From contig REES01000093.1 in NCBI GenBank assembly GCA_007694935.1, positions 1 to 64,000 on the forward strand: DNA of 64,000 bases, in the 5' to 3' direction. Made by a program: the position numbers and the translations under genes. Shown in pieces: positions 27,600-41,599 of the stretch (the first letter of the stretch is position 1; each line of letters opens with the position of its first letter). Source of the DNA: Rhodospirillales bacterium (GTDB taxonomy: Bacteria > Pseudomonadota > Alphaproteobacteria > Rhodospirillales > Defluviicoccaceae). The notes beneath the pieces are model-generated. The model was not told the origin of the DNA. It saw only the letters and a program-made list of their open reading frames with translations, and searched no databases.

Positions 27600-28952
27600 C
27601 TACTGCACCGCCGGGAACAGGAACGCGGTGGCAAGGGCGAAGTAGATGATCACGCCGGTCGCATCCGCAATCGAGGTGACCAGGGGCGCGCTCGCCGTGG
27701 CCGGATCCAGGTTCAGCCGAGTCAGGATGAACGGCAGGGTCATGCCGATCAGGCTGCCGACGATGACGATGATCACCATCGACAGCGACACCACCAGCGC
27801 GATCTCCGGTCCGGCCCGGATCACGCCGATGGCCGACACGGCAATCGCCATGGTCAGGCCAAGCAGGGCGGCCACCGCCACCTCGCGGCCGAGCATCCAG
27901 CCCCAATCCGCCATCTTCACATCGCCGGTGGCCAGCGCCCGCACCATCAGCGTCGCCGCCTGGGAGCCGGCATTGCCGCCGGAATCGATCAGCAGGGGCA
28001 GAAAGAATACCAAGGCAACATAGGCAGCGATGGTGTCCTCGAAGTAGGCGATCCCGGCGCCCGAGAATATATTGCCGAAGACCAGGATCACCAGCCAGAA
28101 AATCCGCGAACGGTACAGCATCAGGATGCTGGCATCCCGGACGTTGGTGAGGAATTTCGAGACCGTGCCGACGCGATGGAAGTCCTCGGTCGCTTCCTCC
28201 TGCATCACGTCCATGGCGTCATCGTGGGTGACGATGCCGACCAGCCGCCCGTCGGCGTCCACCACCGGCACCGCCAGAACGTCATACTTGGCGATTTGCC
28301 GCGCCACCAGTTCCTGATCGTCGTCGACCCGCACCGCGAGCGTGTTCGTCTCCATGATGTCGCTCACCTTGGCCCGGGACGGCGCCACGATGAGGTCGCG
28401 CAGCCGCACCGATCCGATCAGGCGACGGTCCGGGCCGATCACGTACGCGCGGTAGATCGTCTCCTTGTCCGGGGCCTCCCGCCGCAGGTGCTCGATGGCT
28501 TCGGCCGCGGTCAGCGCCGGGATGAGGGTGGCGTAGTCGGAGGTCATGATGGCGCCCGCGGTATCTTCCGCGTAGCCTGCCAGTCGGCGGATGTCCTCCC
28601 GCTCGGCCTGGGCCAGGGCGGGGAGGAGCGCCTCCTGCTGGGCCTCCGTCAGCTCGTTGAACAGGTCGGCCCGCTCGTCCGCGTGCATCTCGGTGACGAT
28701 GCCGGCAAGCTTGTCCCGCGGTGCGTGGCGCGCAATCTCCACCTGGAAATCACGGCCGAGATAGCCGAACACCTCCGCCTGCTCCTCCACCGGCAGCAGG
28801 TCGAGCACGGTCCAGGCATCCCGGGGCTCCAGGCCGCCGAGAAAGTTGGCGAGGTCGGCCGGGTGCTCCGCGTTCACGAACGCCCGGAGGGATTGGAGAT
28901 CACCCTTGCGGGCGGTGTCGCGGATCGCTTGGGCGAGGAGTTCGTAGGTCAT
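27600..28952 (-). CDS. mgtE: Magnesium transporter MgtE
   Basis: A 450-residue MgtE channel. Order: N-terminal superhelical domain (residues about 1-130, ADLANFLGGLEPRDAW), tandem CBS domains (about 135-255, AGAIMTSDYATLIP and VSDIMETNTLAVRV), a plug helix, and five membrane helices with the pore signature PLLIDSGGNAGSQAATL near residue 320. Magnesium binding between the N and CBS domains closes the pore. AAGGAGG stands six bases before the second of two ATGs, so 28952 is preferred over 28955. Transcription continues into mgtC. Confidence 0.95.
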   Translation of the reverse strand: MTYELLAQAIRDTARKGDLQSLRAFVNAEHPADLANFLGGLEPRDAWTVLDLLPVEEQAEVFGYLGRDFQVEIARHAPRDKLAGIVTEMHADERADLFNELTEAQQEALLPALAQAEREDIRRLAGYAEDTAGAIMTSDYATLIPALTAAEAIEHLRREAPDKETIYRAYVIGPDRRLIGSVRLRDLIVAPSRAKVSDIMETNTLAVRVDDDQELVARQIAKYDVLAVPVVDADGRLVGIVTHDDAMDVMQEEATEDFHRVGTVSKFLTNVRDASILMLYRSRIFWLVILVFGNIFSGAGIAYFEDTIAAYVALVFFLPLLIDSGGNAGSQAATLMVRALATGDVKMADWGWMLGREVAVAALLGLTMAIAVSAIGVIRAGPEIALVVSLSMVIIVIVGSLIGMTLPFILTRLNLDPATASAPLVTSIADATGVIIYFALATAFLFPAVQ

Positions 28953-29366
28953 CATCCACCTCCTTGTCCGCCGATGCGATCATCGGCGGCTGGAGGTGGC
29001 GCGGATGCTATGGACGCACCGCCATCCGATCAGACCGCCGGGTCACGCAACGGCTGTGGCCGACCGCCGGCCGGCACGCGGTTGCCAAGTTCACGCTTCC
29101 GCAGAAGCGTCGACTACTGGGATCGTCCATTGCTCACGTGAGGTTCTGCTGTGGGAAACGGCCCAACACCGTCAGTGTTGCAGCCACGACACCAATTAGC
29201 CCGAGTTGGTGGCCAATGCAACCTAGTCCCAGCCGCGGTGCACCGCGACCTGGTGGTTCCATGCCAGCGGATGGGTCCCACCCGTTGGCTGAATCGATCC
29301 ACCAGATCAACAGCCTGGTGGATCGACCAATTTGACGCTTGGGATCCAGGCGTCAAACCCGATCCA
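28953..29366. other. Gap upstream of mgtE with two hairpins at its right end
   Basis: This 414-base spacer separates the M48 gene from mgtE. I see no coding frame. Two perfect inverted repeats lie at 29295-29357, immediately after the M48 stop. The 28960-29290 part presumably holds the mgtE promoter and leader; I could not find an M-box-like element. Confidence 0.5.
29295..29357 (-). terminator. Tandem hairpins downstream of the M48 peptidase gene
   Basis: Reading the minus strand away from the M48 stop: TTTGACGC (29357-29350) pairs with GCGTCAAA (29338-29331) and is followed by TTGGT; then CGATCCACCAG (29325-29315) pairs perfectly with CTGGTGGATCG (29305-29295). Both stems are exact (8 and 11 base pairs). 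They are well placed to end the sigma/anti-sigma/M48 transcript. Confidence 0.6.
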
Positions 29367-30155
29367 CTAGCGGCGGTGCTGTGCGTAGATCGCCAGCGCC
29401 TCCGGCATCAGCGCCTCCATCCGCGCGATCCGGTTGGCTGGGGAGGGATGGGTGGACAGGAACTCCGGCGGCCGGCCGTTGCCGGACACGGCCCCCATGT
29501 TGTGCCACAACTCGATGGCGGCGCGCGGGTCATAGCCGGCCCGGGCCATCAGCATCAGCCCGATGTGGTCGGCCTCCGCCTCCTGCTCCCGGGTGAACGG
29601 CAACAGCAACCCCAACGTCGCCGCCTGGGCGGCGATCTCCACCATCGCCTGGGCACCGGGGCCGGTGAGTCCCGCCAGTCCGCCCAGCCCGTACTGCAGC
29701 AGCATCTGCCGGCTCATCCGCTCGGCGCTGTGCCGGGCCATCACGTGGGCGACCTCGTGAGCGATCACCGCGGCCACCTGGTCTTCGGTGCGCGCCACCC
29801 GGAACAGCCCGGTATGCACCCCGACCTTGCCGCCCGGCAGGGCGAAGGCGTTGGGCGACGGGTCCTGGATCAGGATGAATTCCCAATTGTACCCGCTCAA
29901 CGCCGAGGCATGGGCGATCCGCCGCCCGATCTCCTCGATCATCCGGTTTTCCGGCCGGCCGCGGACCACCGGCTGGTCGGCCTTGATCTGCTGGAAGGCC
30001 TGGATGCCGATCTGCTCCGCCTGCGCCTCCGGCATCAGGATGAGTTGCTGGCGGCCGGTGATCGGCGCGGTCTCGCACGCCGCCAGGATCAGGGCGGCCA
30101 GCAGCAGCGCGGCCAGCCGCGCCACCGTTCCAAGCCGGGGAGAACGCACTGCCAT
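29367..30155 (-). CDS. M48 family metalloprotease, lipoprotein
   Basis: A 262-residue zinc protease. The signal peptide ends in a lipobox LAAC (LILAACETAP), so it is probably tethered in the periplasm or outer membrane. The zinc site is VIAHEVAHVMARHS near residue 135 (HExxH), with the third ligand in EQEAEADHIGL. This is the BepA/LoiP-like group that works in outer-membrane protein quality control. Its ATG (30155) lies eight bases after the anti-sigma stop, placing it in the ECF sigma operon and suggesting an envelope-stress regulon member. Confidence 0.88.
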   Translation of the reverse strand: MAVRSPRLGTVARLAALLLAALILAACETAPITGRQQLILMPEAQAEQIGIQAFQQIKADQPVVRGRPENRMIEEIGRRIAHASALSGYNWEFILIQDPSPNAFALPGGKVGVHTGLFRVARTEDQVAAVIAHEVAHVMARHSAERMSRQMLLQYGLGGLAGLTGPGAQAMVEIAAQAATLGLLLPFTREQEAEADHIGLMLMARAGYDPRAAIELWHNMGAVSGNGRPPEFLSTHPSPANRIARMEALMPEALAIYAQHRR

Positions 30156-30163
30156 CGGCGGGC

Positions 30164-31018
30164 TTACCGGGCAGGCACCGGCACCGCGTCGAAGACGGAG
30201 AAGAGCCCGACAGCGGTCGCCTCGGCCAGGCGCCGGCCGGCATTGGTGACGACACCCACAAACAGGCCATCGCTTTGCCCGATTTGCATGTCGCCGGCCG
30301 GGCCCCGCATGGCCATTCGAGAGAACGAAAGCGGGGGCGGATCCGTTCGGGGCCAGATGAAGATGCCGAGGTAGTCGTCGCCGTCGCCGTCGTGGTAGAC
30401 GAGAACGCCGCTGGCACACTCGTAACCAGGTATCAACGTGCCGCCAACGAATCGGTAGCCGAAGGGCGACAGGTCCGGCCGCGCGACCGACCGCCCCACC
30501 GCCTTATCCAACCATTCCATCAGTTCGTTCTGGCGCCCTTCCGGGAACGGCAGGAGGTTGCGGACGCGCTCCGGTGCCGCGCTGAAGCCGGTCGTTACAT
30601 CCCGGACGATGGGATCGCACGCCAGTGCGGGCGGCACCACCGCATCATGCCCCGCCCAGCCGACGGTGACCCCGATCACGAAGGCCAGCGCCAGGGTGCC
30701 CATCGCCATGCGCCGCGTCCTTGGCCCGGAAGGCAGGCTCTGCCAGGTGGCGGTGGCGAAGGCAGACCGGGACGTGCCGGCCGAGGCGGCCGATCGCGCA
30801 ACACGGGTCAACCGTTCCGGCACCGACTCGACCAGGATGTCAGCGCCGAGCCGCCGGAGGGCCGCATTACGCCGCCGGCAAGCTCGCACGGCCGCGGCCA
30901 GGGCTCGATCATGCTCCAGCGCCGTTTCGAAGTCGTCGAGACGGTCGAGCGAAAGCCGGCCGTTGACATAATCCTCGATATCGTCAACCGAGAACGGCGG
31001 AGGAATCACAGAATCCAC
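30164..31018 (-). CDS. Anti-sigma factor (membrane-anchored, cognate to the upstream ECF sigma)
   Basis: A 284-residue protein with an N-terminal cytosolic anti-sigma-like helical region (VDDIEDYVNGRLSLDRLDDF, residues 11-30), a single membrane helix (MGTLALAFVIGVTVGWAG, about residues 107-124) and a periplasmic domain. The phrase LGADILVESVPERLTRV at about 57-73 is the linker typical of these anti-sigma factors. The ATG overlaps the end of the sigma gene by 13 bases, so the two are translationally coupled. The periplasmic part has conserved Cys-containing loops (LACDPIV, YECASGV) that might form a disulfide sensor; this is inference. Confidence 0.8.
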   Translation of the reverse strand: MDSVIPPPFSVDDIEDYVNGRLSLDRLDDFETALEHDRALAAAVRACRRRNAALRRLGADILVESVPERLTRVARSAASAGTSRSAFATATWQSLPSGPRTRRMAMGTLALAFVIGVTVGWAGHDAVVPPALACDPIVRDVTTGFSAAPERVRNLLPFPEGRQNELMEWLDKAVGRSVARPDLSPFGYRFVGGTLIPGYECASGVLVYHDGDGDDYLGIFIWPRTDPPPLSFSRMAMRGPAGDMQIGQSDGLFVGVVTNAGRRLAEATAVGLFSVFDAVPVPAR

Positions 31019-31518
31019 TCCTTGCCGCCAACTCCGCTTGAGGGCTGCAGAATGTCGCGGAGCGCGCTCCGTGCCCTTGACAGGCGCGAGCGCACGGTGC
31101 CGATGGGCACATCCAGCACGCGGGATGCCTCCTCATATTCCAGGCCTTCGACCGCCACGAGCAACAGCACTTCCCGGTGCTCCTCCGACAATTGGTTGAA
31201 AGCGCGCTCCATCTCGACCATCGCCTGGCGCGCCTCCTGGCCGCCGCAGACACCGACGGCCGCATCGTCATCCTGCAACTCGGCGGGCGCCGGAGACGTC
31301 CGGAGCTTGCGCAGATCGTTGATGTAAACGTTTCTAAGGATGACAAACAACCAGGAGCGTAAATTGGTTCCGCGCTGCCACTTGTCCAGATTGCTGATCG
31401 CCCGGACCAGCGCGTCCTGCACCAGATCGTCGGCGCGGTCGACATCGCGCACCAGGTAGCGCGCATATCGTCTCAATCGAGGAATTTCACCCTCGATCAA
31501 CGAAACAACGTCATCCAT
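31006..31518 (-). CDS. ECF-type RNA polymerase sigma factor
   Basis: A 170-residue sigma-70 family ECF factor with region 2 (ARYLVRDVDRADDLVQDALVRAI, about residues 18-40; NLRSWLFVILRNVYINDLRK, 50-69) and region 4 (LSEEHREVLLLVAVEGLEYEEAS, VPIGTVRSRLSRARSALRDI). It should direct the polymerase to its own promoter and to envelope-stress genes, released by loss of the anti-sigma factor. The start ATG at 31518 follows GGGGAGAGG. I did not find a confident autoregulatory promoter upstream. Confidence 0.92.
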   Translation of the reverse strand: MDDVVSLIEGEIPRLRRYARYLVRDVDRADDLVQDALVRAISNLDKWQRGTNLRSWLFVILRNVYINDLRKLRTSPAPAELQDDDAAVGVCGGQEARQAMVEMERAFNQLSEEHREVLLLVAVEGLEYEEASRVLDVPIGTVRSRLSRARSALRDILQPSSGVGGKEWIL

Positions 31519-31868
31519 CCGCCTCTCCCCCCGCAACCGAGTGCTGGGAACCAAGCGCATCCCACCCGTCATTACGTTACATACCCCAAGTTCGGCAGAT
31601 TGATGATGGTCTTTTACACCTAGCCTGTTGATTTTGTGCCGGCATGGCCCGCAGCACGAGGCGGGAGATGTACGCACGGACAATTACGCACCCCAAAAGG
31701 GGCAACAAATCCCCGTCACGGGGTCCGGTGCCGCGGTTCGGAACTTCCGTTCCCTTTGAACAGGCCGCGAGGCGACCCGGTCCCCTGATGCTGACTTACG
31801 TGCATTCCATGCGGTTGCCTGGCGTACGGAAACACCGCTTGCATGACCGGCAACAACGATCGCAAGGC
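31519..31868. other. Gap upstream of the ECF operon with small palindromes
   Basis: This 350-base spacer has no gene. Small hairpins occur near 31690-31725 (ccccaaaagggg and ccccgtcacgggg) and a ggaacttccgttcc inverted repeat near 31739. On the minus strand the ccccgtgacgggg stem precedes ATTTGTT and might end transcription of the CheB-FixJ locus to the right. Confidence 0.4.
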
Positions 31869-33186
31869 TCAAGGGCGACGTGCCGTGTCCCGCGCGATGT
31901 CGAGGGCTTCGCCCATGCGCACCAGATCCGCAAACGAGTGTGCTTTCATCTTGCGCATGATCTGGGCGCGATGGCCCTCGACGGTCCTCTGGCTGATCCC
32001 GAGCCGGAAGCCGACCTCCTTGTTGGCGCAACCCTGAACGATCAACGCCATGATTTCTTGCTCGCGCGGCGTCAGCTCTTCATAAAGAGACTTTAAATCT
32101 GCGACTTCGATGGCGCCCGCCAAAACGGCCCGGGCGGCGATCCTGAGCTCCTGGTGCGCGGTCGCGACGATGACCGGAATGGTCGCGCCGATCTCCCGCA
32201 GTCTGCTTTGCAGCTCGAGTCCGTTCATCCCGGGCAGCACGACGTCGGTCACCAGGCAACCCGGCGTGCCGGGCTCGTAGGCGTCCAGAAAGGCTTCGGC
32301 GGTTGCGAATGCCCTGACCGGGAAGCCCTTGTCCTGCAGGAGACTGCGCCAGGCATTCCGCGTGGCTTCGTCGTCGTCCACCACGAAGATGACCGTGTCG
32401 GTTGGCTCATCGGGCGCGGCCATCCGTTGGGATTCGGGAACGATGCTGTCCGCCGGCCACGTCCTCGCTTTTGGGAGGTACCGGTCTTCACCGGCCGCCA
32501 GGTCGCGATCCAGCACGTCCTCGAGCCGCTCTCCGGGGGGCAAGCCGGTGGTTCTGCCGTTGACGTACGGTTGCGAGAAATAGTTTCGTATGGCCTCGGG
32601 CATGTCACGGACGGCCAGGACCAGGTCGACGGCGGCGGTGCCGATGGCGCTGCGCGGCATGCCGTCGTAAGCGGCCTCCTTTGGGTCCTGGACGATCGTC
32701 AGCCCCCCTTTCTCCTTGATCGCGCGCAAACCCAGCGTGCCGTCGGTGCCGGTGCCCGAAAGCACGATGCAGACCGACTGTTGTTCCAGGTCTTCCGCCA
32801 GCGACCGGAAGAACAGATCGACCGGTAACCGCGCCCAACGCGCCGCTTTCGGCTCGGAAACGCATAGGGTTCCACTTGTGATCTGCAGAGAGACGCCGGG
32901 CGGAATCACATAGACGTGGTCGCGCTCCACTTGCATGCCGTTGGCAGCCTGTTCGACAGGCATCTCCGTGTGCCTGGAAATGATTTCCGCCATATTGCTT
33001 TCGTGTTCGGGGGCGAGGTGCTGAATCACGACAACCGCCGCACCCGGGCGCGCCGGCATCGCCTCGAAAAAACGCGTTGAGCGCGTCCAAGGCGCCGGCC
33101 GAACCGCCGATGCCGATCACCGGCACGCGGCCGCCGCGTTCGCCGATGGTCTCTCCGTCCGCTTGTTCTCGATTCTCGGCGGCCAT
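31869..33186 (-). pseudogene. CheB methylesterase-FixJ response regulator chimera, frameshifted and internally truncated
   Basis: From an ATG at 33186 (after GGAGAGG) the frame reads RVPVIGIGGSAGALDALNAFF, the CheB start with its catalytic Ser. It then breaks at a run of six A/T (33068-33073); dropping one base restores EAMPARPGAAVVVIQHLAPE with the catalytic His, and later LSGTGTDGTLG with the catalytic Asp. The CheB domain is followed by a FixJ-like receiver (IFVVDDDEATRNAW, TDVVLPGMNGLEL) and a LuxR helix-turn-helix (LTPREQEIMALIVQG...RTVEGHR). The receiver jumps from AVLAGAI straight to EVADLKSLYEELTPRE, missing about 30 residues including the conserved Lys. It looks like a collapsed CheB/CheR-kinase plus FixJ locus. 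Confidence 0.75.
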
Positions 33187-33913
33187 TGCCCCTCTCCTCG
33201 AACGGAAGCGGGGGTGTGTCCGGATGAGAAAGAACCCTTTGCGGCCCCCGTGCAACGCTGCTCGCGTCCGCGGCGTTTCACGGATGGCGGTCGCGAGCGG
33301 CTGCTGCGGATCGTGTGAGCGATCCGTGTCAACGATGATGGAGCGGCCCACGCAGACGCGCAAGCCGCATGGGCCATCGAGGACGCCGGCATCGCCCGTG
33401 CCGCCAGCAGCAAGCAAGGGGCGACCCTTCGTGCCGGAACACTCTGCTCAGCGTGGGAACGCGCCCAATCGTGGGTCAAGTCGCCCCGTCTTGCACCATC
33501 GCATCAGGCCGTCCCCCGCCCCGCCGAAAATGCTGGCGCAGCCACGACCCGGCCGGGCATCAGCCCACCGTCCGCGACATGTCCCATGTGATCGTGAAAA
33601 TCACGTCCGCATTTGGGCGGCAATGCGGCAGCCATGCGTTGCAGGCGAGGCAGTGGGAGCCGCAATCCCCCGCCTGACGTCACCGGCACCATGGCACCAT
33701 GGCCGGGGGGGACCTGCCACCATACCGCTGGCAGGCGCGACTGGGCTGAAAGCCCCGGCACGCGACGGGAGTTCGGCGGCACGGCCGCCCTTATGGGGAT
33801 TGTCTTTTTGGTTCGACTTGCGCAACACTCGGTTAAGGCGATATCGATATAAGATCGGGGATGTGCGGGTCGGCTTGTTCCGAGTGGCGGTCTACCTGGA
33901 TTGGATATGAGAC
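33187..33913. other. Long gap with no recognisable gene
   Basis: This 727-base stretch lies between the broken CheB-FixJ gene and the 33914 hypothetical. None of the frames on either strand reads like a protein I know. Composition becomes AT-richer near 33790-33900 (atcgatataagatc), a plausible promoter area for the 33914 gene. It may be decayed DNA from the same event that damaged the chimera. Confidence 0.45.
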
Positions 33914-34315
33914 ATGGTGCCAACGTCGGTCATGGACGATACCGGAGGTGAAGCCACCGGCGGTCTGGGTGCCACGCCTGCAGTGGTGGTGAATGCCTCA
34001 CGGATGGACGATACCGAAGGATCGAGTGCCCCGCCTTCAACGGAACCGAATTTACTGACGGATGCGCTCGTCCCCGTGGCAGACCTCTGTGGTACCGAGG
34101 TTTCGACGGCTGACCTTGAGGATTTGGTGCTCGGCTGGATGACAGCCGGGGACACCATGGTTGTGGAATCCCGTGCTCTGATCGAACCGCTTCTGGCAGC
34201 CCGGCTGGAGAACGTGCGCAGCACCCTGCTGCCGCTCCGCGACCTGGGCGCATCGATCCTGGCCGAGCCGCTGCCGGACCGGCTTACGGCCTGCCTGCAT
34301 CCTGCCAAGGGCTGA
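33914..34315 (+). CDS. Small hypothetical protein with an anti-sigma-like C-terminal phrase
   Basis: A 133-residue protein of unknown function. The first about 50 residues are low-complexity (Gly, Ala, Thr, Pro). The second half is helical, with LEDLVLGWMTAGDTMVVESR and the terminal phrase LRDLGASILAEPLPDRLTACL, which resembles LRRLGADILVESVPERLTRV in the anti-sigma factor at 30164-31018. It may be a duplicated, shortened relative lacking the membrane helix and sensor. The start has no clear ribosome-binding site. The 3' end overlaps the Crp/Fnr gene by 32 bases on the other strand. Confidence 0.5.
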   Translation: MVPTSVMDDTGGEATGGLGATPAVVVNASRMDDTEGSSAPPSTEPNLLTDALVPVADLCGTEVSTADLEDLVLGWMTAGDTMVVESRALIEPLLAARLENVRSTLLPLRDLGASILAEPLPDRLTACLHPAKG

Positions 34316-35120
34316 CGTCCCTCCCGTCGGCCGCGGCGGTCAGTTCGCTGAGCGTATCGGCGCCGGTCAGCCCGGCCAGATCCATCAGCGCTTCGATGTC
34401 GTGGACCGCCACCCGGCCCGCCGCCATGTCCACCAGCCCATCCTCGCGGAGGGACCTGAGGGTGCGGTTGACGTGCACGATGCTGAGGCCGAGGGCATCG
34501 GCCAGCAACTCCTGGGTGACCGGGAACGGGAACCAGCCGTCACTGGCCACCCCGACCTGCTGGGTTCTCTGGAGCATCTCCACCAGAAGGCTCGCCATCC
34601 GTTCCTTGGCATTGCGGCGCCCGAGGCTCACCGTCTTCTCCAGAAGCCGCGTCATCTCGCCGGCCATGCCGCGCTGAAGCGCTGCGGCCAAGGGCGAGTC
34701 GATGATGGCGAGGGCGCTCAGATCACCGGAGGCATGGCGCCGGACCGTGCAATCGGTCAGTGCGGCGACGAAATGGCTGGCCATCGGCGACAGCGGCGCG
34801 ACCAAATCGCCGGGCACCAGGAAATCGATGATGTGCCGCCGGCCATCGCCCAGGAGCCGGTAGCGAAACGCCCAGCCGGCCTCGAGCGTGAGAACGCCAT
34901 CGCTCCGCTCTCCCTCGACGACGATATCGGTGAACCGGGGTACATGCCGGACGGTCGGATCCTCCGGGCCGCGGCCGTTGCCGCCGGCACGGGGCCCGCG
35001 AGCGCGCCCGCTCCGGGCGGCCGGCGCGCTCTTGGACCCTGGTGTCCGGCAAGAATGGAACTGCTCTCCGCGCGCTTGCGCCATCGTCACGAGCGCCCTC
35101 CCCTTCAAGCCAGTGTTCAC
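34284..35120 (-). CDS. Crp/Fnr family transcriptional regulator with atypical N-terminus
   Basis: The cyclic-nucleotide-binding-like domain is represented by DIVVEGERSDGVLTLEAGWAFRYRLLGDGRR (read in parts) and IDFLVPGDLVAPLSP, and the winged helix by TQELLADALGLSIVHVNRTL and SLREDGLVDM. This is the heme/Fe-S-free Crp/Fnr branch abundant in Rhodospirillales; no N-terminal Cys cluster is seen. The first strand-helix segment of the family is missing or replaced by a low-complexity basic stretch (SKSAPAARSGRARGPRAGG). The start may be at 35120, an ATG at 35084 or downstream. Ligand unknown. Confidence 0.75.
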   Translation of the reverse strand: MNTGLKGRALVTMAQARGEQFHSCRTPGSKSAPAARSGRARGPRAGGNGRGPEDPTVRHVPRFTDIVVEGERSDGVLTLEAGWAFRYRLLGDGRRHIIDFLVPGDLVAPLSPMASHFVAALTDCTVRRHASGDLSALAIIDSPLAAALQRGMAGEMTRLLEKTVSLGRRNAKERMASLLVEMLQRTQQVGVASDGWFPFPVTQELLADALGLSIVHVNRTLRSLREDGLVDMAAGRVAVHDIEALMDLAGLTGADTLSELTAAADGRDVSPWQDAGRP

Positions 35121-35243
35121 GAACGGGGCTGTGAGCCTTGCTCGCTTTCAACACCGCAACGGGAGGAGAGTTCCCCAAAAGGGAGCAAGCAGCCCCCCTT
35201 CCGGCCGCGCGTGGAGCCGGACGTCGGAGCCGACACAGCCCCC

Positions 35244-35660
35244 TTACCGGAGCTGCCGCCGGACGAAGCGGCGGAGCGCCGGGCTGGCGCCGTAGGCGAA
35301 CCCGGCGGCCAGGGCCACCGCCGGACCAACCCATGGCCGGGCGCTGAGCGCCGCCTGGGCACGGGCGCCCGCCAAGCGGCCCAGCTCAGCCGCCGCATCA
35401 TGACTCATCCCGGCCTCCCCGTCGGGGCGACGCTCGCGCCGGCGCCGGCCGCCGCCCCCAACCAGAGCGGCAACCCCGACAAACAGCAAGGCCGCCGCAA
35501 CGCCTGCGAGGCCGGTGACCACGGCCGCGGTCGCCGGTGGCGCGATCTCGGCCACTGCCAGGTAGACGGCGGCGCCCAGCATGCCGATGCCGCCGGCCAG
35601 GACGATCAGGGCCAGCAGCACCAGCACGATGGCAACGCCAACGCGGGCGGCGATCGGCAT
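35244..35660 (-). CDS. Phage holin family / YqjE-like membrane protein
   Basis: A 138-residue protein with two adjacent N-terminal membrane helices (VGVAIVLVLLALIVLAGGIG; ATAAVVTGLAGVAAALLFVG) and a charged linker, then a weakly hydrophobic C-terminal segment. This fits the Phage_holin_3_6/DUF1469 group, which in proteobacteria (YqjE) is chromosomal and pairs with a YqjD-like ribosome-anchoring protein rather than being a true holin. The YqjD-like gene lies 55 bases upstream on the same strand, supporting this reading. Confidence 0.7.
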   Translation of the reverse strand: MPIAARVGVAIVLVLLALIVLAGGIGMLGAAVYLAVAEIAPPATAAVVTGLAGVAAALLFVGVAALVGGGGRRRRERRPDGEAGMSHDAAAELGRLAGARAQAALSARPWVGPAVALAAGFAYGASPALRRFVRRQLR

Positions 35661-35715
35661 TCAAGCGGTCTCCGCTGCCGTCACGGTGTCGACCGGGGTC
35701 CCAGCCGGATCGCGG

Positions 35716-36006
35716 TCAGCGCCGGTTGCCGAACAGAAAACCGAACAGAAGGCCGATGCCGAAGGCGGCGAGAACGCTGCTGAACGGCCGGTGCTCCAAC
35801 TCCCGGGCGACCGCCTGTGCCATCCTGTCGCTCTCGCTTCGCGCCCGGTCGGCACTGGATCGCAACCGTTCGAACGCGGCCGCACCGCGCTCGCTGCCCA
35901 TCTCCTTCAAGGTATGGATGACCGCCGACAGGTCGTCGCGAAGTTGGTTGACCTCCATGCGAAGGGCTTCAGCATCCTTAACGTCCTTGGTTTCCTTGGC
36001 GTCCAT
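35716..36006 (-). CDS. YqjD/ElaB-like (DUF883) inner-membrane protein
   Basis: A 96-residue protein: a long amphipathic helix (residues about 8-70, MEVNQLRDDLSAVIHTLKEM) and a C-terminal membrane segment ending in FGIGLLFGFLFGNRR. The layout matches DUF883 proteins such as YqjD and ElaB, tail-anchored in the inner membrane and, in E. coli, linked to stationary-phase ribosome binding. GGAGA seven bases before the ATG at 36006 sets the start. It is followed by the YqjE-like gene. Confidence 0.78.
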   Translation of the reverse strand: MDAKETKDVKDAEALRMEVNQLRDDLSAVIHTLKEMGSERGAAAFERLRSSADRARSESDRMAQAVARELEHRPFSSVLAAFGIGLLFGFLFGNRR

Positions 36007-36081
36007 GGCTTGCTCTCCTGATGGTCCCGAACGGATCAAGCGATCGATCCTAGGGCCGAGTGGGCACCCCAGGCAACGTCG

Positions 36082-36843
36082 TCACCGCGCCGGCTGCTCC
36101 GGTTCCGGCTCCGGCGCCGCCTCTGGCTCAGCCTCTGGCTCGGCGTCCTGCCAGCGCTCCTGGAACTCGCTCCAGGCCTCGTCGAACGATTGCCGGGCAT
36201 CCCGCCAAGCCTCCTCGCCGGCATCGCGCAGGCGCTGCCAGCGCTCCCGCACCACCGACCAGGCCTGATCCACCCGCTCGGCCGCCTCGGCAGCAAATTC
36301 CTCGCCGGTGGCCTCGGCCTCTTCGGCCAGGCGCTCCACCTCATCCCCCCAGCGTTCCACTTGGCGTTCCGCCTGCTCCAGGTAACGGCGGCGGTCTTCC
36401 GCGGTCTCGGCCGGGGGCGGCACAAAGATGTCAAAACCCTCGGGCTCGTGTACGGCCGGCCGGGCGCGCAGCACGTCGTCGCCGTAGGGTAGCTCAACCC
36501 GGTTGTCCTCGGTCACCGTGATCTCACCGAACGCCACCGGCACGCGCTTCTCCGGCAGGCCTACGGGATCCCCCAGCGACACCACCACGAAGGTGGCTTC
36601 CCCAGCCTGATCCACGATCACGTCGTAAACGGTGCCGATCAGGGAGTCGTCCGGTCCGTGAACCGGGGCCTCGATCAGGCGGCGCATGCGATAGCCGCCG
36701 ATCAGCACCGCCTCCACTGGCGCGATCACCTCCCCTTCGGCCGCGGGCTGCTGCGGGTCGGGCTCGGTTGCCGCCGCGGGACGGGGTGCCGCGATCAGGG
36801 TTCCGGCGAGCACCGCGGCCATCCAGATCAACATGGTCTTCAT
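36082..36843 (-). CDS. Periplasmic PRC-barrel domain protein with coiled-coil tail
   Basis: A 253-residue protein with a signal peptide (MKTMLIWMAAVLAGTLIAAP), a PRC-barrel domain (GTVYDVIVDQAGEATFVVVSL and VPVAFGEITVTEDNRVEL, about residues 55-125), and a strongly charged C-terminal helix (RRRYLEQAERQVERWGDEVE, ERWQRLRDAGEEAWRDARQ) likely forming a coiled coil. It ends in an acidic EAEPEAAPEPEPE stretch. Secreted PRC-barrel proteins of this kind often accompany envelope-stress loci in alphaproteobacteria. Role unknown. Its gene is first in a row of three small membrane or envelope genes. Confidence 0.75.
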   Translation of the reverse strand: MKTMLIWMAAVLAGTLIAAPRPAAATEPDPQQPAAEGEVIAPVEAVLIGGYRMRRLIEAPVHGPDDSLIGTVYDVIVDQAGEATFVVVSLGDPVGLPEKRVPVAFGEITVTEDNRVELPYGDDVLRARPAVHEPEGFDIFVPPPAETAEDRRRYLEQAERQVERWGDEVERLAEEAEATGEEFAAEAAERVDQAWSVVRERWQRLRDAGEEAWRDARQSFDEAWSEFQERWQDAEPEAEPEAAPEPEPEQPAR

Positions 36844-37111
36844 GTCTCGGGTCCTCTCCATTCGTGCGCCGCCGGGAGCGTGGTCATCGTGCCCCCGGGG
36901 GACGGTCCGGCACATCTACCTTCCTGCCGTTTCCATCCCATCGCAATAACCTGGTTTAACCATGGCATGGGCGGCGACCACCACGCGGCGTCCGCCGCAC
37001 CGGCCCGGGATGCGGCGGCGTCCCGGGCGGGCAACGCTTCGTTAGGACGTTGACGGATATCAAGGAAGCCGTTTGGCAGGATGCACCGGGCCTGGAGCGA
37101 GGATCGGTTTC

Positions 37112-37534
37112 GTGTTCCCAACAGTAAGTCGCGCAGAAGCCACCACCGACCGCTACGATCCCGCCTGGGCCAGGACAACCCGCGGACGCTACTACCGCCT
37201 CGTCCACCTCGACCCTGAAGCGGAGAACCTGGCGGGCGCCGGCGGAGTCCTGGTCGTCTGGCACGCCGGCTTCTGGCCGGCCTGGGTCTACGTGGCATCG
37301 GCCCGCGATCTCGCCCACGCGCTCCACGATCTCGCCAACAACGACGACGTGATGAGCTACGAGACCAACGGTGGGCTCTTCGTCACCTGGTCGTTTCTCC
37401 GGCCAGAGTACCGGGACGGCGTTGTCACCTACCTGCTGGAACGGCTTCGCCCGAAGGTGTTGCCGGCGTCACCGCCGGTCCAGGCAACTCCCATTCCTGT
37501 CCTGTCGCCGACCGAGCCGTCCCGGTCCCTCTGA
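37112..37534 (+). CDS. Conserved hypothetical protein
   Basis: A 140-residue protein read from a GTG at 37112; an upstream ATG at 37073 is an alternative. The core has RTTRGRYYRLVHLDPEAENL, VVWHAGFWPAWVYVASARDL and SYETNGGLFVTWSFLRPEYR, giving a compact mixed alpha/beta look with conserved aromatic residues. No signal peptide or membrane segment. I have no family name for it. It converges with ecm, with nine bases between the stop codons. Confidence 0.55.
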   Translation: MFPTVSRAEATTDRYDPAWARTTRGRYYRLVHLDPEAENLAGAGGVLVVWHAGFWPAWVYVASARDLAHALHDLANNDDVMSYETNGGLFVTWSFLRPEYRDGVVTYLLERLRPKVLPASPPVQATPIPVLSPTEPSRSL

Positions 37535-37543
37535 TCATCAGCC

Positions 37544-39556
37544 TCAGGCCGCCGCCGGCACGCTGCCCTCGACGATGTCGATGATGTCGCCGATGATCGC
37601 GTTGATGTCGAAGTCCTTGGGGGTGTAGACCCGCGACACGCCCGCTTCTTGCAGCGTCTTGGCGTCCTCCGACGGGATGATCCCGCCGACCACCACCGGC
37701 ACGTCGGTGAGATCCGCCTCCCGCATCCGCTCCATGATCTCGGTCACCAGCGCCACGTGGGACCCGGACAGGATCGACAGCCCGACCACGTGCACGCCCT
37801 CCTCCAGGGCGGCATCGACGATCTGTTGCGGGGTGAGCCGGATCCCTTCGTAGACCACCTCCATGCCGGCGTCGCGGGCACGGAGCGCAATCTGCTCGGC
37901 GCCGTTGGAATGGCCGTCGAGCCCGGGCTTGCCCACCAGAATCTTGATGCGGCGGCCGAACTTGTCGGTCAGCCCCTGGACCCGGCCGCGCACCTTCTGC
38001 AGCGCGGCGGCATCGGTGGTGACGGCCGCTTGGCCCACCCCGGTGGGAGCCCGGTACTCGCCGAAGATCTCCCTGAGGCAGCCGGCCCATTCCCCGGTGG
38101 TCACCCCGGCATGGGCGCAGGCGATGGACGGCGCCATGATATTGCGGCCTTCCTTGGCGGCGGTCGCCAGGTCGGCCAGGGCGGCATCCACCTTGGCCTG
38201 GTCGCGGCTCTCCCGCCATGCCTGGAGGCTGCGGATCTGGTTGGCTTCGCTGGCCGGATCGATGGTCATGATGCTGCCCGCGCCGGTCGACAGCGGCGAT
38301 GGCTCGGCTTCGGTGAACTTGTTGACGCCGACCACGACCTGGGTCCCGTCCTCGATGGCGGCGAGGCGCTTGGCGTTGGATTCCACCAGGCGCTGCTTGA
38401 GGTAGCTCGATTCCACCGCGCGGACGGCGCCGCCGACCTCATCGATCCGCTTCAGTTCGTCCCGCGCCAGATACTTGAGTTCTTCCACCTTCTCGGCGAT
38501 CGCCCGGGAACCGTCGAAGATGTCGGCGTATTCCAGAAGATCGGTCTCGTAGGCGACGATCTGTTGCAACCGGAGCGACCACTGCTGATCCCAGGGCCGC
38601 GGCAGCCCCAGTGCCTCGTTCCAGGCCGGGAGCTGTACGGCGCGGGCGCGGGCGTTCTTGGAGAGCACCACCGCCAGCATCTCCAGAAGGATGCGATAGA
38701 CGTTATTCTCGGGCTGCGGCTCGGTCAGGCCGAGAGAGTTGACCTGCACGCCGTAGCGGAAGCGGCGGTACTTGACATCGCTGATGCCGTAGCGCTGCTC
38801 GGTCAGCTCATCCCACAACTCGGTGAACGCGCGCATCTTGCACATCTCGGTGATGAACTTGATGCCGGCGTTGCAGAAGAAGCTGATACGCCCCACCACC
38901 TGCGGCATCTCCGCCTCCGGCACTTGGCCCGAGGCCTTGACGGCGTCGAGCACGGCGAACGCAGTGGCCAGCGAGAACGCAAGCTCCTGCACCGGGGTGG
39001 CCCCGGCTTCCTGGAGGTGGTAGGAGCAGACGTTGATCGGGTTCCACTTGGGAACTTCCTTGTAGGTGTAGCAGATCATGTCGGCGGTCAGCCGCATCGA
39101 CGGCGTGGGCGGGAAGATGTAGGTGCCGCGCGACAGGTATTCCTTGATGATGTCGTTCTGCGTGGTTCCCTGCAGCTTCTGGCGTTCGACGCCCTGACGT
39201 TCGGCCGCGGCGATGTAGAGCGACATCAGCCACGCGGCCGGCGCGTTGATGGTCATCGATGTATTCATCTGATCGAGGGGGATGCCCTCCAGCAGTGTCT
39301 GCATGTCGCCCAGGTGGCAGACCGGCACACCCACCTTACCCACCTCACCGCGGGCCAGCACGTGATCGGAGTCGTAGCCGGTCTGGGTCGGCAGGTCGAA
39401 GGCGATGGACAGCCCGGTCTGGCCCCGCGCCAAATTCTTGCGATACAGCGCGTTGGATTCCCTGGCCGACGCATACCCCGAATAGGTTCGGATCAACCAC
39501 GGCTTGTCGCGTGGCGGGGCGTCCGTGCGTGCTCCAGTCGCTAGTGTCTCGGCCAT
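37544..39556 (-). CDS. ecm: Ethylmalonyl-CoA mutase (B12-dependent)
   Basis: Ecm converts (2R)-ethylmalonyl-CoA to (2S)-methylsuccinyl-CoA, a step specific to the ethylmalonyl-CoA pathway for acetate assimilation. The 670-residue protein has the mutase TIM barrel (SIAFDLPTQTGYDSDHVL, QGTTQNDIIKEYLSRGTYIF) and a C-terminal B12 domain with LDGHSNGAEQI near residue 546 (DxHxxG) and SILSGSH near residue 597. The LDGHSNG form and the neighbours ccr and mcd separate it from methylmalonyl-CoA mutase. A GAGGAGGAGGGAGG run precedes the ATG. It diverges from ccr. The cofactor enzyme PduO is encoded nearby. Confidence 0.93.
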   Translation of the reverse strand: MAETLATGARTDAPPRDKPWLIRTYSGYASARESNALYRKNLARGQTGLSIAFDLPTQTGYDSDHVLARGEVGKVGVPVCHLGDMQTLLEGIPLDQMNTSMTINAPAAWLMSLYIAAAERQGVERQKLQGTTQNDIIKEYLSRGTYIFPPTPSMRLTADMICYTYKEVPKWNPINVCSYHLQEAGATPVQELAFSLATAFAVLDAVKASGQVPEAEMPQVVGRISFFCNAGIKFITEMCKMRAFTELWDELTEQRYGISDVKYRRFRYGVQVNSLGLTEPQPENNVYRILLEMLAVVLSKNARARAVQLPAWNEALGLPRPWDQQWSLRLQQIVAYETDLLEYADIFDGSRAIAEKVEELKYLARDELKRIDEVGGAVRAVESSYLKQRLVESNAKRLAAIEDGTQVVVGVNKFTEAEPSPLSTGAGSIMTIDPASEANQIRSLQAWRESRDQAKVDAALADLATAAKEGRNIMAPSIACAHAGVTTGEWAGCLREIFGEYRAPTGVGQAAVTTDAAALQKVRGRVQGLTDKFGRRIKILVGKPGLDGHSNGAEQIALRARDAGMEVVYEGIRLTPQQIVDAALEEGVHVVGLSILSGSHVALVTEIMERMREADLTDVPVVVGGIIPSEDAKTLQEAGVSRVYTPKDFDINAIIGDIIDIVEGSVPAAA

Positions 39557-39693: not shown

Positions 39694-39841
39694 GATTCTC
39701 CGGCTGGTGACCGGGACGGCGCCAAAGCAACCAACACCGGGGGGCGAAGCAGCAACAGCGCTCTTCGCGTGAAGCGGTGGAGGGCGATGCGCTTGCGACC
39801 AAAACCAGAGCACACTTTCAACCGCTCGCGGAGGGAACAGA

Positions 39842-41599
39842 ATGCCAAAGGAACTCTACGACATCGGTGATGCGCCGCCCCTCGGAGAAGTGCCGGCGAA
39901 GATGCATGCCTGGCTGATCCGGGCAGAGCGCTTTGGTCAGCCGACGAAGGCGTTCCAGAAAGAGGTGATCGACGTTCCCCCGATCAAGGATGACGAGGTC
40001 CTCGTCTATGTGATGGCCGCCGGCATCAACTATAACAACGTCTGGGCCGGTCTCGGCATCCCGATCGACGTCATCAAGTCCCGCAACAAGCAAGGCGAAC
40101 CGGAAGATTTCCACATCGGCGGCAGCGACGCCTCCGGCATCGTCTACAAGATCGGCAAGGACGTCACCAACCTCAAGGTCGGCGACGAGGTGGTGATTCA
40201 TTGCGGCAAGTGGAGCCGCGACTGCCCGATGGTCAAGGCCGGTGTCGATCCGATGTATACCCCCACGTTCCGGATCTGGGGGTATGAGACCAACTACGGC
40301 AGCTTCGCCCAGTTCACCCCGGTCCAGGCGCACCAATGCATGCCGAAGCCCGCGCACATGACCTGGGAAGAGGCGGCGGCCTACACCCTGGTCGGCGCGA
40401 CGGCGTGGCGGATGCTGCACGGCTGGCCCGAGCACAAGATGAAGCCGGGTGACCCGGTGCTGATCTGGGGCGGTGCCGGCGGCCTTGGCTCCATGGCGAT
40501 CCAGATCGTCAAGGCGGCGGGCGCAATCCCCATCGCGGTGGTCTCCGGCGAGGACAAGATCGATTACTGCATGCAGCTGGGCGCCAAGGGCTGCATCAAC
40601 CGAAAGAACTTCGACCATTGGGGGATGCTGCCCCATTGGAAGGACTCGGTGGGATATGCCAACTGGCTCAAGGGCGTACGGAAGTTCGGCTCGGCGTTCT
40701 GGGAAGTCCTGGGCGAGAAGCGGGCCCCCACCATCGTGTTCGAGCATCCGGGCGAATCCACCATCCCGACGTCCATGTTCCTGTGCGAGACCGGCGGCAT
40801 GGTGGTGATCTGCGCCGGCACCACCGGCTACAACGCCACCGTCGACCTGCGCTACCTGTGGATGCGGCAGAAGCGGGTTCAGGGCTCCCACTTCGCCAAT
40901 GACGAACAGTCGTATGCCATGAACGAGTTGGCGCTGAAGGGTGTCCTGGATCCCTGCATGTCGCGGGCCTTTCCGTACGACGACATTCCCACCGTGCATC
41001 AGCTGATGCATGACAACCTGCATCCCCACGGCAACATGTCCGTGCTGATCGGCGCTCCCGATTTCGGCCTCGGCAAGAGCGCCCAGGCGCCGCGCATGCA
41101 GCCGCAGGCCACCTTGCCCGCGGACGATCGTCACGACACACCCCACCCCTACCCGCTGTCCGCGCCGCTTCCCGACCTCGATGGCGCCATCGAGGAGATC
41201 ACCATCGTCGACGACGGCACCAAGGTGCGCGACCATATGCACCCGGGGATCATATCCTGCGACCGTTCCGACAAGCTGCTCGAGGCAGCCAAGCGGATGG
41301 TCGACAACGACGTCCATGCCCTGGTCGTGATCGAGGGGAACCGGGCCGTCGGCGTACTGTCGCAGACGGATATTGTTCTGGCCCGGCAGGGGCGCACCAT
41401 TGACGACGTCAGACCGTTCACCGTCGGTGACTGGATGACCGAGGGATGTGCCACCGTGGATGTCGGTGCGCCAATGAGCCAAGCCATAACGGCGATGATG
41501 AAGCAGCGGATCCATCGCCTGGTGGTGACGGAGGCCGACAAGCCGGTGGGTGTGCTGTCCATGACCGACATCGTTCGCAAGGCGATGGTGGCAGAATGA
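39842..41599 (+). CDS. ccr: Crotonyl-CoA carboxylase/reductase fused to a C-terminal CBS domain pair
   Basis: Ccr reductively carboxylates crotonyl-CoA to ethylmalonyl-CoA with NADPH and CO2, the committing step of the ethylmalonyl-CoA pathway. Residues 1 to about 415 are a full Ccr of the MDR superfamily ([21 protein letters not shown] site [20 protein letters not shown], ending NMSVLIGAP). A proline-rich linker follows (about 415-458), then two CBS repeats: about 460-515 ([11 protein letters not shown]...[10 protein letters not shown]) and 527-582 ([11 protein letters not shown]...[10 protein letters not shown]). Typical Ccr is about 430 residues; this one is 585. GGAGG seven bases before the ATG fixes the start. 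CBS pairs bind adenine nucleotides, so energy-state control is a reasonable inference. Confidence 0.93.

Follow-up and report, generated by a model that had tools for sequence, protein, structure and literature searches.

The CheB-FixJ gene on the minus strand is probably a lineage-specific chimera that was recently frameshifted and is a pseudogene in the making, not a new kind of regulator. It lies in a stretch of 64,000 nucleotides that was analysed as a whole (the window). We read it as a decaying chimera because it carries three lesions (an apparent CheR-kinase loss, a cut receiver, and a frameshift), has a singular architecture, and is absent from a sister genome. The frameshift is suggested to be recent, since the lesions that preceded it left the frame intact and the codons beyond it are still host-like. 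Counting against long decay are the 396 codons without a stop after the run of T at which the frame changes, and host-like codon use throughout; with the downstream frame open and its residues kept, the last lesion would be either recent or an error.

Gene layout and reading frames

The gene starts at ATG 33186 behind GAGGAGAGG, a strong Shine-Dalgarno sequence. Frame 0 runs from this ATG for 193 amino acids to a stop at 32605, without any Pfam match in its product, and carries VPVIGIGGSAGALDALNAFF, the CheB Ser motif, within its first 40 codons. It then meets a run of six T (T6), which is six A on the plus strand at 33067-33072, followed by CGA. The preliminary description had correctly picked out this six-A run as the point of frame change, but had placed it at 33068-33073. 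Past the run, the shifted frame is open from ATG 33059 to 31869 (396 codons) and encodes, in this order, CheB, a linker, a FixJ-type receiver, and a GerE helix-turn-helix (HTH). No Rfam element was found within 28000-38000.

Table 1 Features of the CheB-FixJ gene and its locus
Feature	Coordinates	Strand	Basis
Stretch with no counterpart at the syntenic locus in G001, a genome of the same genus	31684..33913	.	Locus comparison
First 40 codons, frame 0, up to and including the T6 run; contain the CheB Ser motif GIGGSAGA	33067..33186	-	Coding score 0.33 in frame 0
T6 run, then CGA; the frame changes here	33067..33072	-	Sequence, codon-usage signal
Rest of the CheB methylesterase domain, shifted frame	32574..33066	-	Pfam PF01339, 2.6e-48
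Linker, first part aligning with the CheB-to-CheR linker of relatives	32427..32573	-	Alignment
FixJ-type receiver, beta1 to alpha4 only	32102..32426	-	Pfam PF00072, 1-94/111
Linker helix, GerE/LuxR-type HTH, stop codon	31869..32101	-	Pfam PF00196, 1.3e-18; AlphaFold

The CheB half

Positions 21-174 of the CheB_methylest model are matched in the shifted frame with 164.5 bits against a cut-off of 24, and 17 of 18 near-invariant columns are retained in comparison with 45 relatives. The Ser lies in the upstream frame, and His14 and Asp106 lie in the 396-codon open frame; what we take to be the CheB catalytic triad is thus divided between frame 0 and the shifted frame. The domain had been described as complete across the frames, with Ser, His, and Asp all present, and the Pfam match together with the Ser motif upstream of the run bears this out. 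Sequence comparison supports the CheB half as a member of the CheB-CheR-kinase family. In an alignment with relatives, the CheB-to-CheR linker is retained and ends just short of CheR_N; CheR, which comes after CheB in that family, is absent from the open frame.

The receiver and HTH half

The receiver (Response_reg, 3.5e-21) is without 31 residues, lost in frame, and the conserved Lys is among them. In an alignment of the receiver-HTH half with 91 relatives, from which four badly placed rows had been removed beforehand, the CheB-FixJ receiver has gaps at the Lys and Pro columns, which hold K and P in 91/91 relatives; 27 of 32 near-invariant columns are retained. Between the alpha4 motif and the HTH lie 16 residues, whereas the distance is 47 in 40 of 43 scorable relatives (the other 48 of the 91 gave no score). 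The earlier estimate of about 30 missing residues, Lys included, is therefore confirmed. As in FixJ/NarL regulators, a phospho-acceptor Asp and a Thr are present in the receiver and a GerE HTH follows; the complete receiver with the conserved Lys on beta5 is not there.

An AlphaFold model made with 25 sequences (mean pLDDT 83, pTM 0.49 overall) built the receiver from beta1 to alpha4, the joint at low confidence (pLDDT about 53), and the linker helix and HTH confidently (about 85-97 over most of their length). The HTH should still be capable of binding DNA. Normal switching by phosphorylation is predicted from the known mechanism of the family to be lost, because beta5-alpha5 with the Lys is missing.

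It is very unlikely that the FixJ part alone is in use as a short-receiver regulator. An in-frame ATG at 32423, about 10 residues ahead of the receiver, and the intact HTH would suit such use, but no Shine-Dalgarno sequence is seen before this ATG, no sigma-70-like promoter was found within 31600-34000, and the Lys and beta5-alpha5 are absent.

The T6 run and the frameshift

A score of codon usage, for which 43 frames of the window served as training set (the 31872-33116 frame of the CheB-FixJ gene itself included), is positive for frame 0 up to the run and for frame 1 from there to the end of the gene. The window contains 29 homopolymer runs of at least six bases, and the best-scoring frame was held across 15 of them and changed across 14. 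Positive scores on both sides were found at 13 of the 15 frame-keeping runs, two of these 13 within the CheB-FixJ gene. Among the 14 frame-changing runs, only the T6 run scored positive on both sides on one strand in different frames; the other 13 were at gene edges, intergenic, or strand-ambiguous. No general homopolymer error in the assembly was seen. The survey argues against a generally indel-prone assembly, and it is compatible with a single error at the T6 run.

If the surplus base were such a sequencing or assembly error, the gene would encode an intact transcription factor of CheB, linker, short receiver, and HTH, carrying an esterase domain and uncoupled from phosphorylation. Both halves read as coding in host-like codon usage, with most invariant residues preserved, the start has its strong Shine-Dalgarno sequence, and AlphaFold builds beta1-alpha4 and the HTH at fair confidence. 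We nevertheless think this unlikely, in view of the 13 other runs that keep their frame in coding DNA, the damage to the receiver as well, and the lack of an intact homologue of the CheB-receiver-HTH architecture among the genomes and plasmids searched.

The preliminary description had also raised the possibility of a real but bypassed frameshift. The CheB frame would be restored if the Phe tRNA slipped by +1 at UUU UUU CGA, and to that extent the site fits. UUU_CGN is described in PMC5052127 as a +1 shift motif of influenza A and plant amalgaviruses, on eukaryotic ribosomes; the bacterial transcription slippage treated in PMC5009743 involves runs of nine A or T, which are longer than the T6 run here. 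It should be noted that UUU_CGA is not independent evidence, because adding one T to such a codon pair creates the motif by itself. In 14 window genes (7979 codons), TTT-CGN occurred once against 2.7 expected, and TTT-CGA did not occur. At least five T were found at the run site in one of 36 relatives' stretches, so that the run is not conserved as the site of a programmed +1 frameshift would be. We consider it highly improbable that some ribosomes slip by +1 at UUU_UUU_CGA and so produce small amounts of a CheB-receiver-HTH protein, its esterase tied to a DNA-binding domain without a phospho-switch. Were this true, CheB would act on transcription directly.

The locus and its counterpart in a sister genome

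The same-genus genome G001 has the same order of M48 peptidase, anti-sigma, ECF, small plus-strand, and Crp genes, with nucleotide identity of 73-83% in blocks. There, the ECF gene and the small gene are only about 0.6 kb apart, and the interval shows no trace of CheB or FixJ. This comparison is with one same-genus genome and is compatible both with gain and with loss. No flanking direct repeats of an insertion were found across the missing stretch (Table 1), and a search for the same neighbours in other family members gave no close ECF match beyond G001. Elsewhere in this genome (97.6% completeness), only an ordinary cheB and cheR are present. A synteny check proposed earlier thus yielded a genome with the same neighbours and without the CheB-FixJ gene; an ancestral CheB/CheR-kinase gene next to FixJ was not seen there.

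Several neighbouring genes have features of their own. The ECF sigma factor (31009-31683, minus strand) has a region 2 that best matches the PhyR sigma2 domain (PF22029, 9.3e-17), and the anti-sigma gene (30164-31018, minus strand) is next to it, downstream. Judged by eye, the small gene beside Crp (33914-34315, plus strand) is similar to the N-terminal portion of the anti-sigma gene; the two share an ...LGADIL/LL.E.VPERL... end, and both have counterparts in G001. Farther along, 39773-41593 (plus strand) encodes a zinc alcohol-dehydrogenase-type protein with two C-terminal CBS domains, an unusual combination, and adjoins a methylmalonyl-CoA mutase gene.

Search for the same architecture

CheB matches were found at 130 places in 317 genomes of the order (E <= 1e-30), 23 places in 385 genomes of the class (E <= 1e-40), and 61 places in 398 genomes of the phylum (E <= 1e-36). 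Three places stood on two lists, so that the distinct places number 211, from up to 1,100 genomes. No CheB-receiver-HTH fusion of 415 residues turned up among these 211 other places (0/211) at the E limits used, a count that includes G375:C98, G656:C403, G1048:C10 (225), G883:C76 (609), and G701:C1 (618) as listed. Nearly all 211 belong to open frames some 500-1,800 residues long. Shorter CheB frames occur in G125:C168, G117:C440, G469, G375, G656, and G1048; the first two were rejected as short CheB genes, since their frames reach contig ends.

Among 1,162 matching plasmid records, none was found to be a CheB-receiver-HTH fusion. Query coverage reached 80% in three records (Hyphomicrobiales UR115, Caballeronia SBC1, and Caballeronia SBC2). 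UR115 and SBC1 proved to be separate adjoining genes with stops between them, and SBC2, whose match equals that of SBC1 in extent and identity, is probably alike. The lower-coverage Cupriavidus EM10 and Sphingobium V4 were likewise rejected as stop-divided neighbouring genes. Among the papers listed in literature searches, none was seen to describe a CheB-receiver-HTH protein. Intact CheB-HTH fusions of the same length in many genomes, named in the preliminary description as the finding that would speak against its chimera, were looked for in both collections and did not appear.

The closest CheB subfamily has CheB, CheR, PAS, kinase, receiver, receiver, and GerE on one chain. These large CheB-CheR-kinase proteins (giants) seem prone to decay: G469 has a CheB with CheR cut short, G496 and G663 are frame-broken, and in Methylocapsa polymorpha the CheB gene is split from a CheR-to-FixJ gene.

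Origin of the join

That a CheR-PAS-kinase part was lost is plausible, because the CheB half belongs by sequence to the CheB-CheR-kinase family and its linker is kept to just before CheR_N. No CheR remnant was found in this genome besides the ordinary cheR. The scar of a deletion, as first proposed, thus keeps its plausibility as to the part lost, and the route by which the halves met is left between two.

One route is an internally deleted giant, in which a CheB-CheR-PAS-kinase-receiver-FixJ chain lost its middle; this would be compatible with a dead gene. All 13 such giants read within the taxonomic order (13/13) have a CheB 50-56% identical to that of the CheB-FixJ gene and a C-terminal receiver-HTH. 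However, a careful FixJ tree, made with 49 of 99 rows after removal of long-branch rows and choice of a subset, and including 16 giants (one split in two genes), held the giants in a 100/100 clade that excludes the FixJ half of the CheB-FixJ gene. This half grouped instead with the end of a MASE1 hybrid kinase of G005 (98/71), both branches being long. The CheB half, too, lies outside the giants' CheB clade (100/98), and the in-frame ATG ahead of the receiver also counts against this route. The AU test did not reject placement of the FixJ half inside the giants clade in the careful tree (p 0.39), and in a larger, quickly searched tree with four badly placed rows removed, the giants-constrained tree was likelier than the first-found one (AU p 0.82). 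An internally deleted giant could therefore be the source, though we doubt it.

We lean weakly towards a separate FixJ gene that was joined by a CheB remnant. The earlier proposal of a join to a downstream FixJ gene agrees with the ATG at 32423, as expected of a once-separate gene, but in the 16 giants of the FixJ tree the FixJ part is already C-terminal on the kinase chain.

Proposed history and implications

In the history that we favour, a gene of CheB-CheR-kinase type would have lost everything past CheB, in a deletion that we infer, and become joined in frame to a FixJ-type regulator. The receiver would have lost its 31 codons (beta5-alpha5 with the Lys) in frame, at that time or earlier. 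Last, one surplus T in the run near the start would have shifted the frame between the catalytic Ser motif and the rest. Translation would then start normally and give a 193-residue nonsense product, and internal starts could yield at most a Ser-less CheB fragment or a free receiver-HTH fragment.

On this history, the gene would illustrate how giant single-chain sensors lose domains and become fused to regulators next to them, with one such fusion product caught apparently dying. If the protein is made, it would represent a regulator type new to the searched collections, in which an adaptation enzyme is wired to a promoter without phosphorylation. The earlier suggestion of a new type of regulator agrees with an architecture that is unique in those collections; however, a dying gene is judged likelier, as the receiver is cut and the run is not conserved.

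Comparison with known systems

The CheB-FixJ gene shares with CheB-CheR-PAS-histidine kinase fusions the same linker start and a CheB domain for which the best relatives show 50-56% identity, and many of these fusions end, as it does, in a receiver-HTH. An example is G044:C157 (1494 aa), with CheB, CheR_N, CheR, PAS_10, HisKA, HATPase_c, two receivers, and GerE. In contrast to them, the CheB-FixJ gene lacks CheR, PAS, and kinase and has a cut receiver and a frameshift. With the FixJ family (NarL/LuxR type), it shares the receiver Asp, the Thr, and the HTH, and its receiver-HTH is 41-50% identical to 24 aligned relatives; it differs in the 31 missing residues, Lys included, and in the CheB fused in front. 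Of the FixJ ends sampled in the tree, the closest (98/71) is that of the MASE1-PAS-kinase-receiver-FixJ hybrid of G005, a protein of 1095 aa from the same family. Unlike the CheB-FixJ gene, this hybrid has a full kinase, an intact receiver, and no CheB, and its gene order differs; yet a FixK-like Crp gene adjoins both it (G005:C29) and the CheB-FixJ gene.
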